The notes under the pieces are model-generated. The model did no database searches, was not told where the DNA came from, and saw only the letters and a list, made by a program, of their open reading frames with translations. Positions 7,863 through 62,638 of a stretch of 64,000 nucleotides of DNA are shown here, piece after piece. The DNA is from a virus, in the IMG/VR virus record IMGVR_UViG_3300027969_000042, positions 62,001-126,000 of that record; one strand, given 5' to 3'. A program made the translations under genes and the position numbers. Each line of letters opens with the position of its first letter. Within the stretch, counting starts at the first letter, position 1.

Positions 7863-7865
7863 AAT

Positions 7866-7893
7866 AAAAACCACTCAATTGAGTGGTTTTTTT
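7866..7893. terminator. Bidirectional palindromic terminator
   Basis: AAAAACCACTCAA directly followed by its reverse complement TTGAGTGGTTTTT. It separates the ferritin-like gene (+) from the small gene ending at 7875 (-). Confidence 0.88.
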
Positions 7894-8108
7894 ATATCTT
7901 GTGTTGTGTAAAAGTTATTATTTACTTTTTTAGTTGCATATCTACTTTTTATCATACTATCTGCGGATGGCATTCCAAGCAATCTTCTAATTTTACTTTT
8001 TCTAAAATAGTTCTTATATTGTATAGTAGTTATACTTTGTGCCATTACATAGGGTACATAAATGTAACCTGGATCTGCTGTTTCTTTTTCTTTTCTACCT
8101 ACTAACAT
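7875..8108 (-). CDS. 77-aa protein resembling the C-terminus of a T4-type major capsid protein
   Basis: The product contains GYIYVPYVMAQSITT followed after a basic insert (FRKSKIRRLLG) by MIKSRYATKKVNNNFY. T4 gp23-type capsid proteins end with a similar pair of blocks (a YxPYVxL strand, then a G-F-K-T-R-Y block), so this looks like a detached or duplicated capsid C-terminal strand region. No other part of a capsid protein is present in the window. Its start overlaps the end of the 43-residue frame upstream (8095-8226) by 14 bases. It could instead be an independent small head or neck protein. Resemblance judged by eye only. Confidence 0.65.
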   Translation of the reverse strand: MLVGRKEKETADPGYIYVPYVMAQSITTIQYKNYFRKSKIRRLLGMPSADSMIKSRYATKKVNNNFYTTQDIKKPLN

Positions 8109-8226
8109 TAAATAATCTTTTAATTTTATTTTTTCTATTTGTAGGTCTCATAGCTAACCACATTCTCCAACCAGTAGTATCATACTGATGATTATTAGTT
8201 CCTGGCCAACCCGCTGCAAATGACAT
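8095..8226 (-). CDS. Small hypothetical protein (43 aa)
   Basis: Starts at the ATG at 8226 and ends with TAG at 8095, overlapping the next gene by 14 bases in another frame. The product starts MSFAAGWPGTNNHQYDTTGW and ends in a basic tail (RPTNRKNKIKRLFNVSR). The basic tail recalls the FRKSKIRRLLG stretch in the downstream protein, and the overlap suggests translational coupling. No family recognised. The pair may be remnants of one ancestral gene split by a frameshift. Confidence 0.45.
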   Translation of the reverse strand: MSFAAGWPGTNNHQYDTTGWRMWLAMRPTNRKNKIKRLFNVSR

Positions 8227-8246
8227 AGTATTATACTATTTAATTA

Positions 8247-17649: not shown

Positions 17650-19098
17650 TTAAAGTTGAATAGCTTTAATTTCATTGAAAAGAGCTTTTTTATCCATCTC
17701 CATCATCTTCATTACATCGAAAACTTTATCAGAGAAACCAGCTAAAGCAAATACATTGTTTTCTGGAAACTGCATTGTACCAAGACCCGCTAAATCCCAA
17801 GAGTAAACATAAGGATTTGCATCATACGTTTTCTTGTATTGTTTGAACTCAGCAGTTGGACTTGTGTAACCAACCCATCCTTGCATATCTGAAAGGATAA
17901 CAACTCTATCATACTTTTTATTAGCAGTAGTAAAGATTGACTTGAAGTTTGTTCCACCTCCAGAGTATCTAAAACTATTTCTAATTGTCATAACAGAATC
18001 CATTGGGTTGTATGACTTGTAGTCCGATCTATTCGCGAATGTTAAAACATCTGCGTTGTTGGATTTTGCTAAAATAGCACCAAATAATGAAGCAATCTCA
18101 GAAGGTCTTCCACTCATTGATCCAGAAACGTCCATAACAACTAATGTATCACCATCAAACTTAGGAACATTACACATTGAAACCTCTAACGCTTGGTTTA
18201 TCGCAACTAAAACGTCTCTAACTCCTTTTGAAGATCCCATTTTACTGATTTCTTCGTAAGCAGTTGCAAATCTAAAAGGTAAAACTCTTGATTTACTAAT
18301 CATTCTTTCATCTACTAACAACTCACAAGCAGCAGGAACTACGTTAGGTGCTTGATTTAAGATGTTTCTTAGGTTTCTCAAAAGTGCAAAATAACCAATT
18401 TTTCTTGAAGTGATTAAATCAGTCCAAGCATCAGATTTTAATTGACTTAAATCTTCTTCATTCTCAGCTACTTGACCTGCTTGAGAAAGTTTAGCTTCCC
18501 AAGTTTCTGTGTTTTTCAAATCACCTTTAACAAGTAATTCTAAAGCAGTTTTGTTTCTATCAGTTGGAACTGGGTGTACAATGTTCACTAAGTCAACTAA
18601 TTTAAGGTCTTTGTTTTTACCAGAGTATTTTGCTAATTGATAAGCATCGAATTTATCGAAAGCTTTTGCAAATCCTTTTTTCAAAGAGTTTGGAAACTTT
18701 GGATTGTCTTTACTTGTTTTGTGTAATAAGTAGTATGACATAATCTCAGTCATATCATCAACACGAACTACAACTTTGTCATAGAAGTTTTTACCTAATT
18801 CACTACCTTTTAACTCTGATGCCAATTCACCAGCTAAAGCGTGAGTAATACTTCTCATACCAAATTTATCACGAGCATAAATTGCTGCTTTTGCTGAGAA
18901 CTCAGGATCTACTTTCTTAACCAAGTTTCTTAAATCTTTTAATGTATCATTACCAGACTTATAGAATTGATCATTTACGAATGAAGTCAATAACATAGAT
19001 ACTAAAGCTAATTCATTTGTTTGAGAATAAGCTTCACCACCTGCTAGGTTTATAGTTTTTGTTTTTGGCTCTTTTACGGTTGTGTTAAATTTTGACAT
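17650..19098 (-). CDS. Ro60/Rsr-like TROVE-domain RNA-binding protein
   Basis: 482 residues. Residues about 20-300 form the TROVE HEAT-like ring: NELALVSMLLTSF, FSAKAAIYARDKFGMRSITH, and the diagnostic IGYFALLRNLRNIL (234-247). Residues 316-482 form a von Willebrand A domain with a full MIDAS signature (DVSGSMS at 323-329, later GGGTNF and ILSDMQG). Ro60 proteins hold misfolded or non-coding RNAs in the ring and bind Y RNAs on the outer surface; bacterial Rsr also tethers to nucleases such as PNPase. The gene lies directly downstream of a 0.5-kb non-coding region with its own terminator, the typical place for a Y RNA gene. Family assignment is secure; RNA partner is inferred. Confidence 0.95.
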   Translation of the reverse strand: MSKFNTTVKEPKTKTINLAGGEAYSQTNELALVSMLLTSFVNDQFYKSGNDTLKDLRNLVKKVDPEFSAKAAIYARDKFGMRSITHALAGELASELKGSELGKNFYDKVVVRVDDMTEIMSYYLLHKTSKDNPKFPNSLKKGFAKAFDKFDAYQLAKYSGKNKDLKLVDLVNIVHPVPTDRNKTALELLVKGDLKNTETWEAKLSQAGQVAENEEDLSQLKSDAWTDLITSRKIGYFALLRNLRNILNQAPNVVPAACELLVDERMISKSRVLPFRFATAYEEISKMGSSKGVRDVLVAINQALEVSMCNVPKFDGDTLVVMDVSGSMSGRPSEIASLFGAILAKSNNADVLTFANRSDYKSYNPMDSVMTIRNSFRYSGGGTNFKSIFTTANKKYDRVVILSDMQGWVGYTSPTAEFKQYKKTYDANPYVYSWDLAGLGTMQFPENNVFALAGFSDKVFDVMKMMEMDKKALFNEIKAIQL

Positions 19099-19130
19099 AT
19101 TATTATTTTATTTTTATTTCGTTTTTTTGT

Positions 19131-19171
19131 AAAAAAAAAGACCAGAATTACATTTCTGTAAATCTGGTCTT
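19131..19171 (-). terminator. Strong rho-independent terminator ending the non-coding locus
   Basis: On the - strand, AAGACCAGA-T-TTACA, loop GAAA, TGTAA-T-TCTGGTCTT is a 14-bp stem with one mismatch, followed by at least seven T. It lies upstream of the Ro60-like gene, so it would end an RNA made from the region to the right rather than a coding transcript. Confidence 0.85.
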
Positions 19172-19560
19172 ATTATAATTTAGCAAACAAGAATATTAGC
19201 CTAAGCGACGCAAAGAATTCTACTTAACTTTGCCGATATTTAAAGTAACATCTCACTCATATTTTTAAAGGAAACTTATGAATTCCTGACTTTTCGACCA
19301 GAGGCAAGCGCTATTGCCCTTACATGGTAGCATAGAGTAGTCGTCTCTATACGTTCTTTCTGATAGTTGTATAATATACGAAGTATCTTAGAACTTTGCT
19401 ATGTTTGCGTTTTTTTATAAATAAAACCAGAGTAAGTTATCTTAGAGAGTTTTTTTGAATCCATATCGAAGTATCTCTATGATTTGCTACTGATTGTATT
19501 ATTGTATTATTAAATTAGAAAAAGTTTAATCTTTTTCTAATTTATTTTATGTATATAGTA
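19172..19560 (-). ncRNA. Candidate structured non-coding RNA locus (Y-RNA-like position)
   Basis: The 19099-19614 gap holds no credible frame although the rest of the window is almost fully coding. Read on -, it contains a 13-bp perfect hairpin (19512-19543, loop of six), hairpins GGCAA/TTGCC (19303-19318) and ATAGAG/CTCTAT (19332-19350), two 23-base direct repeats (19379-19401 and 19467-19489) and a strong terminator (19131-19171). A TATATAC motif at 19552-19557 could be its promoter. Its place just upstream of a Ro60-like gene matches bacterial rsr-Y RNA loci. I could not fold a convincing cloverleaf, so a tRNA-like YrlA domain is not shown. Strand and ends are inferred; more than one RNA may be present. 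Confidence 0.45.
19379..19489. repeat. Two 23-base direct repeats 88 bases apart
   Basis: Copies at 19379-19401 and 19467-19489 share CGAAGTATCT at the start and TTTGCTA at the end around six variable bases. The conserved flanks with a variable centre suggest two related RNA units or a conserved stem with a changing loop. A shorter related block (AACTTTGC) is at 19226-19233. Confidence 0.6.
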
Positions 19561-19589
19561 ACCTTGAAAATTTCGCTTTTTTCCAAGGT
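19561..19589. other. Imperfect hairpin at the right end of the non-coding locus
   Basis: ACCTTG-AAAA (19561-19570) pairs with TTTT-C-CAAGGT (19579-19589) with one bulged C. On + it is followed shortly by a T-run, so it could be a + strand terminator; on - it would be a 5' structural element or the terminator of the tagged gene at 19615-19914. Confidence 0.4.
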
Positions 19590-19614
19590 GGATTTTTTAT
19601 AGTGTTCTAGAATG

Positions 19615-19914
19615 TTATTTATCTTTCATAAAATCAACAATTCTACTTTTAATCCTATCCAAATCTACATAATTTCTTCCATTAGGATTTGTAAAATTTC
19701 TTTCTTCGTCTGTGTTCGGGTCAAAATTTCCTAAACTACTTACATAATAGTCTTTAATTAGGTCTATTACTTCATCCTTAGTATATTTTTGAGTTGGTTT
19801 TTCAGAGTCTACATGTATATGATAGTAATCACCACTCATATCACCAGTCTTTGTTTGGTAATCATCTGGTACTCCAGACCCTGGAAAATGTTCAAATAAT
19901 TTAATATTTTTCAT
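19615..19914 (-). CDS. Small tagged protein (99 aa)
   Basis: Begins MKNIKLFEHFPGSG, a close match to the recurring tag. The rest is hydrophilic: GDYYHIHVDSEKPTQKYTKDEVIDLIKDYYV and a C-terminal helix DLDRIKSRIVDFMKDK. Two copies of a DYY segment are visible. No family recognised. It is separated from the ribonucleotide reductase gene by a terminator and has a TATATAGTATATA region about 20 bases upstream, so it appears to be its own unit. Confidence 0.75.
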   Translation of the reverse strand: MKNIKLFEHFPGSGVPDDYQTKTGDMSGDYYHIHVDSEKPTQKYTKDEVIDLIKDYYVSSLGNFDPNTDEERNFTNPNGRNYVDLDRIKSRIVDFMKDK

Positions 19915-19944
19915 AAATTTATATTTTTTTTATATACTATATAT

Positions 19945-19979
19945 AAAAAAATCCTCTTAAAAAAAGAGGATTTTATTTT
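19945..19979 (-). terminator. Terminator of the ribonucleotide reductase gene
   Basis: AAAATCCTCTT, loop AAAAA, AAGAGGATTTT; on the - strand it follows the nrdA-like stop and runs into T. Confidence 0.85.
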
Positions 19980-28185: not shown

Positions 28186-28304
28186 ATTTTAGTTGATATT
28201 TTTGTTACGTTTTATATGATATAAAAGGTAATTGTTTAAAAAATGAATTTTTTTAAATTTATTTTAGTTTTTTATTAGAAAACAAGGTTTTTTATAATTT
28301 TTAT

Positions 28305-28511
28305 ATGATATATAGATTAAACTACCACATTTTTATGGAACATATCTTACACCACGATGAATTCTCTGTTTATACAACAACAGATGAGATTTTTAATTTT
28401 ATTGACGAATTATTAGAAAATGGACTTTCAAATGAGTTTGAAATATATGATCTTTGTATTGAAAAATTCGGACAATATTTTACCCAACATCTTGATTCAC
28501 TAAAAGAATAA
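28305..28511 (+). CDS. Small acidic protein (up to 68 aa)
   Basis: Reads MIYRLNYHIFMEHILHHDEFSVYTTTDEIFNFIDELLENGLSNEFEIY. The true start may be the ATG at 28335 (MEHILHHDE), giving 58 residues. It is preceded by an AT-rich gap of about 120 bases and followed at once by a terminator, which supports a real gene. No family recognised; possibly an acidic inhibitor-like protein. Read the whole sequence as one small helical domain. Confidence 0.6.
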   Translation: MIYRLNYHIFMEHILHHDEFSVYTTTDEIFNFIDELLENGLSNEFEIYDLCIEKFGQYFTQHLDSLKE

Positions 28512-28535
28512 AACCCTCAACTGCGAGGGTTTTTT
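28509..28535. terminator. Bidirectional terminator
   Basis: AAACCCTC, loop AACTGC, GAGGGTTT, followed by T. Ends the small + gene and the DNA polymerase fragment on -. Confidence 0.85.
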
Positions 28536-28536
28536 A

Positions 28537-36769: not shown

Positions 36770-36953
36770 TACTATAATATGTATTCGTTGGAAGCTAACT
36801 GGAAGACTTGAACACTTTGTCAATTTAGGCAAAGTGTTCACTTATTATGATAGTGATGAATTAGGAGTTTCTCGTTCTATTTTAAATAGAAGAAATCTAT
36901 TTGATGGTTATCAAAATGATATGATTGAAATAATAAAAACATATGTAAAGTAA
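36759..36953 (+). CDS. Small protein co-transcribed with metallophosphoesterase (64 aa)
   Basis: Chosen start MRSSTIICIRWKLTGRLEHF overlaps the preceding stop by 11 bases in another frame, typical of translational coupling. The domain TYYDSDELGVSRSILNRRNLFDGYQNDMI recalls small nucleic-acid-binding/partner proteins of phage operons, but no family is recognised. Ends at a terminator. Confidence 0.6.
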   Translation: MRSSTIICIRWKLTGRLEHFVNLGKVFTYYDSDELGVSRSILNRRNLFDGYQNDMIEIIKTYVK

Positions 36954-36979
36954 AAACCCACTATTTAAGTGGGTTTTTT
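36952..36979. terminator. Bidirectional terminator
   Basis: AAAAACCCACT, loop ATTTA, AGTGGGTTTTT; between the small + gene and the tagged - gene at 36984. Confidence 0.87.
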
Positions 36980-36983
36980 ATTC

Positions 36984-61024: not shown

Positions 61025-62638
61025 TTACAAATTAATTTTTATTATCTTATATGGGTATTTTCTTTTATTATAAAATCCCTCTCTTTCTTTAAAATGTCTA
61101 TAAAGTATATTAGACATATCATTTGGATTGAATATATCAACTAAATCAAAGATGTTTACTTTATCTTTGTCAGTGTGTAAACGAAGTCCACGACCAATAC
61201 TTTGAATAATAATCTGCTCTGATTTGAATGAGTCAGTAAATATAACATTGAAAATAGCATTTATACTCACACCGGTAGAAAGTGTTCCAAAAGAAGCTAC
61301 AAGTACTTTAACTTTATCAGAAGTTACCTCCATCAATTTTTTAATCTCTTCTCTTTTCCTACCACTTATCTCACCATCAATATAATAGAATTCTTTATCT
61401 GGTAATTCATCTTTTAATTTCTGAAATATTCTTTGTCCATTTTCAATAGTGTGAAATAATAATAAAGTATTATTAGTACACTTTTCAACAATCTTTCTAA
61501 TAAAGACTAATCTTTTCTCAGATTGATGAGCATAAGCTTTCTCTAAATCAAATGCTGCCTTACCATCACCACTCTTTCTTATCAATTTCAATCTTTCATG
61601 AAACTCTAAGTCATTATGGTTCATTATAACGGCCTTTATTTCCATTGGAGTAATAATACCCTTCTTCTTTAATTCATCCGCAGAAACCTCTGTTATTTTA
61701 GGTCCTAAAACGGCCTGTATATTAAGTATCTCACAAGTATCATCTGTCGGAAAAGTACCAGATACTCCAAATCGACAATAAGCATGTGTAAATGTACTTT
61801 CTAGAATAGATGAAATTGTTTTTGCTTTGGCGCCGTGGGCTTCATCGGTCGCAATTGTATGAAATTGTTGAAAGAATTTTTTAGGCCACTTCTCTAAAGA
61901 TTGATAAGTACCAATATAAACATTAGGATTTTCTGTACCAGAAAACTTTCTTGGTCTGTCAGACATTACTTCTTCTACTCTAACAGTACAAGGTATATGT
62001 CCATTATTTAGATCTTCAAATTTATCAATTTTACTTTCTCTCATTTGCAGAAGGTTATTCAAACCATAGTTATACTCTATAATATTATCATAAAACTGTG
62101 TAACTAAAGTAATTGAAGGAACGATTATTAGAAATTTTGCATCTGGATCAGTATGTTTTAAAGTATAAAACATAACTATTGATATGATGAGTGACTTACC
62201 ACCTGAAGTTGCTACTTCTGCCATACAAAATCTATTCTTTAAAATTTTATAAGCCGCTTCAATTTGATGGTCGTATGGCATAAAAGGAACTATTTCACCA
62301 TCTTTCTTCATTTTATGAGTTTTGAAGAAGTCTTTACAGAAGTCTTGAACTTTTTCTAAAGTAACATCTCTATTGATTGGAAAATCTTCTTTATTTTCAA
62401 CTATAAAAGGAGCATCAATTTCTTTACAACCTCGCATAGCTTCTTTCCACAAACCTAAGTTTATTTTACCATCTCTAAAGTAAGATTTTTTACCATCCCA
62501 TACTCCCATTTTCACCGCTGGTTGGTATCTCCAACCTTTGACATGACGAGTTAACCACAGTGATAACTGATGATATTCAACTCTACTTGCTTCTGTGACT
62601 ACTAACTCTTCTTTATCTTTATCATATCTAAGTTTCAT
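61025..62638 (-). CDS. uvsW: UvsW-like superfamily 2 helicase
   Basis: 537 residues from the ATG at 62638 (MKLRYDKDKEEL); a further upstream ATG adds 16 residues, but the TATATATA motif and family N-terminus favour the shorter form. N-terminal WYL/UvsW-type region with VKGWRYQPAVKMGVWDGKKSYF, as in T4 UvsW (substrate-recognition domain). Motor: Q-motif PYDHQIEAAYK, Walker A ATSGGKS, DEAH (TDEAHGAK), SGTFP, and motif VI QSIGRGLRLH. UvsW remodels branched DNA and removes R-loops, switching replication to the recombination-dependent mode. Together with UvsX and gp41 it supports T4-type replication. Confidence 0.93.
   Translation of the reverse strand: MKLRYDKDKEELVVTEASRVEYHQLSLWLTRHVKGWRYQPAVKMGVWDGKKSYFRDGKINLGLWKEAMRGCKEIDAPFIVENKEDFPINRDVTLEKVQDFCKDFFKTHKMKKDGEIVPFMPYDHQIEAAYKILKNRFCMAEVATSGGKSLIISIVMFYTLKHTDPDAKFLIIVPSITLVTQFYDNIIEYNYGLNNLLQMRESKIDKFEDLNNGHIPCTVRVEEVMSDRPRKFSGTENPNVYIGTYQSLEKWPKKFFQQFHTIATDEAHGAKAKTISSILESTFTHAYCRFGVSGTFPTDDTCEILNIQAVLGPKITEVSADELKKKGIITPMEIKAVIMNHNDLEFHERLKLIRKSGDGKAAFDLEKAYAHQSEKRLVFIRKIVEKCTNNTLLLFHTIENGQRIFQKLKDELPDKEFYYIDGEISGRKREEIKKLMEVTSDKVKVLVASFGTLSTGVSINAIFNVIFTDSFKSEQIIIQSIGRGLRLHTDKDKVNIFDLVDIFNPNDMSNILYRHFKEREGFYNKRKYPYKIIKINL

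Follow-up and report, generated by a model that had tools for sequence, protein, structure and literature searches.

The window analysed in this study is a stretch of 64,000 nucleotides (nt) of viral DNA, corresponding to positions 62,001 to 126,000 of the IMG/VR record IMGVR_UViG_3300027969_000042. The locus of interest within it consists of a gene coding for a homologue of Ro60 and of the non-coding stretch that precedes it, which is predicted to specify a pair of Y RNAs. The gene (17650–19098, − strand) codes for a protein of 482 amino acids (aa) with TROVE and vWA/MIDAS domains. Its product was matched to TROVE in Pfam (68.1 bits for a cut-off of 23, E 1.1e-18), to vWA_Ro60 and to PHROG 850 (E 5e-44), its closest solved structures are the TROVE/Ro60 proteins 9l5y, 9nen, 2nvo and 1yvp, and the MIDAS elements DVSGSMS, GGGT and LSD are found in its translation. 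The protein is 76% identical to one encoded by LR745206.1, a phage genome of 634,780 bases, which makes it probable that the DNA of the window comes from a huge phage; jumbo phage genomes are known to encode TROVE proteins (PMC7824862).

The non-coding stretch (19099–19614, 516 nt) is the widest gene-free gap of the window. It contains no internal open reading frame (ORF) of at least 25 aa, the two short ORFs present being confined to its edges. Its − strand folds far better than shuffled sequences (z −6.0 and −7.7 in two computations), the + strand less well (z −4.7 and −4.2). A preliminary description of this DNA, made from the sequence alone, had presented 19099–19614 as a structured non-coding locus upstream of a Ro60-like gene with TROVE and MIDAS features, and our results agree with it on each of these points, the conserved RNA being located on the strand of the downstream TROVE gene. 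That this would be the only long gap was an overstatement, since others are found at 959–1439 (481 nt), 7863–8246 (384 nt) and 28186–28536 (351 nt). A coding origin of the gap was rejected, considering the lack of an ORF, the out-of-frame indels among relatives and the presence of covariation instead. Another non-coding gap of the window (36770–36983) folds strongly on either strand (z about −5).

Scanning viral contigs with the Ro60 protein of the window yielded 30 loci. Where the identity is about 67% or more, Ro60 is preceded by a non-coding stretch of about 500–670 bases, and the neighbour beyond it varies, being a ribonucleotide reductase, another gene, or a gene on the opposite strand. 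The RNA is retained directly upstream in relatives with 64–97% TROVE identity, although the next gene upstream differs among them. When aligned, the stretches preceding Ro60 have a long conserved RNA in common, on the Ro60 strand, which ends 32 nt upstream of the TROVE start codon, an adjacency that is kept in the relatives. A DNA pattern taken from the middle of the RNA was found in 25 viral contigs, 24 of which have it directly before a TROVE gene, the remaining match (locus L036) being located at the end of its sequence stretch. The statistics on structure, covariation and pairing given below are based on 28 related loci.

Two units can be recognised in this RNA, both on the − strand and both marked by the Ro60-module motif RUAGYRA-N8-GWUACUUCG. 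Unit 1 (19427–19493) is a stem-loop of 67 nt with the motif GTAGCAA-N8-GATACTTCG at 19490–19467, while unit 2 (19183–19408, 226 nt) is closed by GCAAACA/UGUUUGC, contains a large insert, and has the motif ATAGCAA-N8-GATACTTCG at 19402–19379. The two copies form an internal repeat (AAGATACTTCG at 19402–19379 and GAGATACTTCG at 19490–19467), of which none is expected in shuffled sequences. Nearly all relatives have a spacing of 15 nt in the unit 1 motif, with 16 nt in L031 and L036, and a T-to-C change is present in the motif of L040. A third unit in L054 was withdrawn, being a loose pattern match with a spacing of 52 instead of 15. The 177-kb record from which the window is taken, itself a fragment, shows just the two units.

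Unrelated phages and bacteria have the same motif next to their Ro60 genes, in many cases repeated in tandem and in many cases flanking tRNA-like domains. A strict version of it (GTAGTRA-N8-GWTACTTCG) was present in 116 viral and 119 bacterial pieces, with many matches by chance; wherever a TROVE gene was also present, the motif was on the same strand (37 of 37 viral and 8 of 8 bacterial pieces). A covariance model built from unit 1 of the window's clade alone (R1), which matches unit 1 with an E-value of 5e-15, was searched against 28 TROVE loci from other clades and recognised Y units in 18 of them at E ≤ 0.01. Many of these loci had been selected by motif; among the 12 chosen by protein homology only, 5 were matched. 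As a control, 74 bacterial pieces with the motif and without TROVE were searched, giving two matches, both in short, truncated pieces with two units each. Two tandem Y units are also present in each of the bacterial contig pieces L230 (uncultured Clostridia) and L238 (Paludibacteraceae), whose Ro60 genes are probably located beyond the sequence stretch examined. R1 does not match unit 2 of the window RNA, which we attribute to the insert. The latter is pseudoknotted, measures about 150–250 nt and was seen in the window's clade only: a model of the insert (R2) gave no match outside that clade, and a scan of bacterial genomes with a signature pattern of unit 2 gave no matches.

For unit 1, 94.7% of the cells of the alignment are paired, 10 of 14 pairs have two-sided changes, and the covariation score is 0.467, compared to 0.159 in shuffles. 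For the 3′ half of the RNA (P3, the loop pseudoknot, P4, P5 and the terminator), 86.6% of the cells are paired and the score is 0.298, compared to 0.156; the support is weaker here because the counts of changed pairs and of pair types are not clearly above those of the shuffles. Within unit 2, two-sided changes were observed in four of the five pairs of an H-type pseudoknot (19256–19287, − strand), formed by the hairpin AGGAA/UUCCU (loop UUCAU) with AUGAG, and in three of the five pairs of the hairpin P5 (CAAAG/CUUUG, 19211–19232, − strand). The 5′ hairpin P0 (19512–19543, − strand) has a stem of 13 base pairs in the window, and the pairing of its arms with each other is more stable than that with arms from other loci (−4.4 versus −2.8 kcal/mol, p 2e-4).

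Based on the motif, the matches of R1 across clades, the strict same-strand linkage to TROVE and the covariation among the 28 homologues, the reading of the window RNA as a pair of tandem Y RNA units, in a broad sense, is well supported, with binding to Ro60 as a prediction from sequence. The preliminary description had noted hairpins and internal repeats, and had proposed a Y-like RNA specified by the phage itself together with its own Ro60. The repeats are real and correspond to the two module copies, and the proposal is well supported as far as the Y-like RNA and its Ro60 are concerned. It had missed that there are two units, that the RNA is devoid of a tRNA-like domain, and that unit 1 and the terminator can engage in mutually exclusive pairings ahead of a Ro60 gene without a promoter motif of its own.

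No Y_RNA (RF00019), YrlA (RF02553), tRNA, GOLLD or ROOL was found in the window with Rfam at curated cut-offs, and a Rfam search of 19050–19950 at E ≤ 5, which covers the comparison with Y RNA and YrlA covariance models suggested in the preliminary description, gave none of them either. ARAGORN found no tRNA in the window. YrlA is a tRNA-mimic Y RNA of Salmonella and others, in which stem a, internal loop, stem b and a large insert follow one another as they do in the window RNA; the latter differs from it in that it matches neither YrlA nor tRNA at this threshold. The sibling phage loci L028, L030, L022 and L029 match YrlA below the curated cut-off. Since it has no tRNA-like domain and since R2 is limited to the clade, the window RNA is not a YrlA. 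The best weak Rfam match, the L20 leader (26.5 bits for a cut-off of 58.7, E 0.0076), was rejected, as it rests on an AU-rich stretch and the terminator.

In Deinococcus, Ro60, Y RNA and PNPase form an RNA-degrading complex (PMC4726728). For Y RNAs in general, the lower stem is established as the binding site of Ro60 (PMC4726728). Bacteria as well as mycobacteriophages are reported to have Y RNAs (Chen et al. 2014, as cited in PMC12282133). The Listeria phage CKA15 has highly transcribed non-coding regions at most 2 kb from its Rsr gene and in the same direction; in the available part of that report, their identity as Y RNAs is only proposed, and no attenuator or conserved structure is described for them (PMC12282133). 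Like the Y RNAs of bacteria and phages, as far as these are presented in the papers citing the original work (Chen et al. 2014, RNA 20:1715, cited in PMC12282133 and PMC4726728), the window RNA adjoins Ro60 on the same strand and has a two-stem Ro60-binding module, which is predicted in our case. It differs from them, within the same sources, by the lack of a tRNA-like domain in either unit, by the pseudoknotted insert and by its attenuator-like pairing. Tandem units are also present in the phage loci L023, L025, L072 and L075.

The putative promoter of the RNA is a TATATA element (19552–19557, − strand), pointed to by its enrichment and by the relatives. Indeed, TATATA occurs at most 70 nt upstream of 35 of the 58 genes of the window, where 5.7 would be expected, and 28 out of 28 relatives have TATATA or TATGTA no more than 220 nt upstream of unit 1. 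The element often ends just 4–6 nt before the start codons of window genes, which would lead to leaderless transcripts if it acts as a −10 element. Between the terminator and the Ro60 start, TATATA is absent in the window, and just 2 of 27 loci have one among the relatives. Considering that it is found before the RNA and not between the terminator and Ro60, the latter is probably expressed by readthrough. The sequence CTATAAA, located where the conserved region begins and resembling a T4 late promoter, was rejected as a promoter, since it shows no enrichment before genes (2 versus 1.0 expected). Directly upstream of TATATA is a conserved inverted repeat (ACCTTGGAAAA/TTTTCAAGGT, 19561–19589), a candidate operator or hairpin whose arms, as read by eye, are changed yet complementary in most relatives. 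Conserved inverted repeats in this position are also what an untranscribed or unrelated structured DNA (an operator, an origin or a degenerate gene) could display, but the excess of folding is strand-specific, the changes are compensatory, and the pseudoknot and terminator are on one strand, so that we consider this explanation highly improbable.

The RNA ends with an intrinsic terminator (19131–19169, − strand), composed of GACCAGA...UCUGGUC and U9 (strands 3 and 4), which confirms the − strand terminator of the preliminary description. In 28 out of 28 loci, GACCAGA, the 5′ arm of this terminator, complements CUCUGGUC, which forms the 3′ arm of unit 1. Strand 2 (CUCUGGUUUUAUU, 19420–19432, − strand), made of this 3′ arm and the linker, can pair with either strand 1 or strand 3 (AAUAAGACCAGA, 19163–19174, − strand), the latter being both its antiterminator partner and the 5′ arm of the terminator. 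The resulting 1:2 / 2:3 / 3:4 scheme is that of a transcription attenuator: the 2:3 helix is incompatible with the predicted Ro60-binding stem of unit 1 as well as with the terminator, and antiterminator and terminator are both conserved. The terminator arms are nearly fixed among relatives while the loop drifts, apparently because the 5′ arm also complements the 3′ arm of unit 1. A concerted change of strands 2, 3 and 4 was observed in L018, and a partial one in L036. Extended 2:3 duplexes are more stable with their own partners than with those of other loci (−15.0 versus −12.5 kcal/mol, permutation p 2e-4), and the linkers alone also favour their own partner (permutation p 6e-4), in tests that ignore the tree. 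Ensemble folding without strand 4 gives a probability of 1.0 for 2:3 and 0.0 for 1:2 in all 28 loci, while the averages with strand 4 are 0.90 for 1:2, 1.0 for 3:4 and 0.03 for 2:3. When strand 3 is shuffled, 2:3 falls to 0.02–0.23.

The pairing of unit 1 with the terminator, together with the absence of TATATA before Ro60, points to cis control as at least one of the jobs of this RNA. This could be questioned if the twin Y RNA acted in trans only, as a partner in a Ro60 ribonucleoprotein (RNP; for example as an exonuclease tether or gate), with an ordinary terminator, a weak promoter of its own for Ro60, and 2:3 pairing that arises incidentally from an extended basal stem of unit 2 or serves as a processing signal. 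The Y RNA nature is indeed strong, and since unit 2 lies inside the 2:3 helix, this helix could be no more than its outer stem. Moreover, LR745206.1 has two further Y RNAs within tRNA arrays, about 100 kb away and far from its Ro60, which argues for a trans-acting role of Y RNAs in these phages. One is simple (L292 1461–1543, corresponding to LR745206.1 342960–343042), while the other has a T-arm-/D-arm-like insert in permuted order (L293 1535–1687, corresponding to LR745206.1 369034–369186), and both are located between tRNA genes. A trans-acting role alone nevertheless appears unlikely to us, as it does not account for nearly frozen terminator arms around a drifting loop, for strands 2, 3 and 4 changing in concert, for the missing TATATA, or for a 2:3 helix that excludes both the terminator and the predicted Ro60-binding stem. 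Considering the Y RNAs in the tRNA arrays of LR745206.1, tRNA-like Y RNAs are probably located in other parts of the phage genome, the leader pair serving a different purpose. The converse, a purely cis-acting leader comparable to those of ribosomal proteins and giving no stable Y RNA, would agree with the strict adjacency to TROVE (24 of 25 pattern matches) and with the attenuator-like pairings. It is improbable, since the module of both units is also that of Y RNAs away from TROVE, in tRNA arrays, and since an intrinsic terminator gives a defined RNA.

We therefore lean, with somewhat more confidence than doubt, towards a twin Y RNA pair which binds the Ro60 of the phage and doubles as an attenuator leader of its gene. 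One RNA of about 415 nt would run from TATATA at 19557 to the end of the U-run at 19131, with two tandem Y units binding the phage's own Ro60. Pairing of strand 2 with strand 1 would form the Ro60-binding stem and leave strands 3 and 4 free to make the terminator, and a stop there would release the free twin Y RNA, forming a Ro60 RNP. Pairing of strand 2 with strand 3 would remove the terminator and let RNA polymerase read into Ro60. Since Ro60 binds the lower stem of Y RNAs, bound Ro60 would favour termination: on unit 1 it would lock 1:2, turning its own gene off and coupling the amounts of Y RNA and Ro60. We give slightly less than an even chance to this specific version, in which Ro60 bound to the first unit keeps termination active and the RNA thereby released is itself the partner of Ro60. 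Transcription, Ro60 binding, and the sign and reality of the regulation are what we infer, with Ro60 as a putative ligand suggested by the Y module only.

Several points weigh against regulation of this kind. Shared ancestry could account for part of the conservation seen in strands 2 to 4, AU-rich spacers pair easily, and TROVE may have a promoter of another type. The full RNA at equilibrium prefers termination, so that the switch must work during transcription. Finally, the Y units before TROVE in other clades are mostly without the attenuator architecture, which is therefore not a general rule: L064, L141 and L289, tried as further examples, have terminators between Y unit and TROVE and no 2:3 complementarity by eye. 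L072 is a partial case, with a 2:3 probability of 0.5 without strand 4. In this locus of another clade (reverse strand, before TROVE), the 3′ arm of the last Y unit (AAUAUUCUC) complements the terminator arm (GGGAGAAAUAUU), making it a possible second, independent attenuator.

The window leader resembles the L20 leader and trp-type 1:2/2:3/3:4 leaders in having exclusive antiterminator and terminator helices before the gene of the presumed binder, and differs from them in that a Y RNA would serve as the sensor stem, with Ro60 as its regulator; it is not homologous to L20. No report of Y RNAs as leaders or attenuators was found in the literature searched, the coverage of which is incomplete. 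Phage Y RNAs beside Ro60 are already known; the alternative pairing of Y unit and terminator and the pseudoknotted insert distinguish the window RNA from those described in the sources cited above.

Other arrangements of Y units were observed in phages. In L289 (OR575929.1, phage csAssE-Sib, 2144–2400), a tRNA-Tyr (2166–2238) and a tRNA-Lys (2311–2384) are annotated directly before Ro60; as both lie inside Y units with GWTACTTCG, they probably represent tRNA-like portions of Y RNAs and not genuine tRNA genes. Y units adjoin the Ro60 start codon in L030 (3910–4005) and L022 (3892–3970), and CUCCUUG of the former complements the Shine-Dalgarno region CAAGGAG, which suggests, at the level of sequence, translational control by the Y unit in L030. 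In L029 (1587–1950), a tmRNA gene (Rfam E 5e-33) is located about 2 kb upstream of the phage Ro60, with tRNAs downstream.

The locus bears on how phages use Ro60 and on how the levels of Y RNA and Ro60 are matched. Its RNA is conserved and lends itself to two readings, one as an RNP partner and one as a switch, with precise mutational predictions for strands 1 to 4, and the locus indicates that Y RNAs can bear a large domain which is not tRNA-like. The further Y RNAs in the tRNA arrays of huge phages link Ro60 to phage tRNA biology, and a Ro60-sensing attenuator, if true, would represent a cis-regulatory role for a Y RNA.
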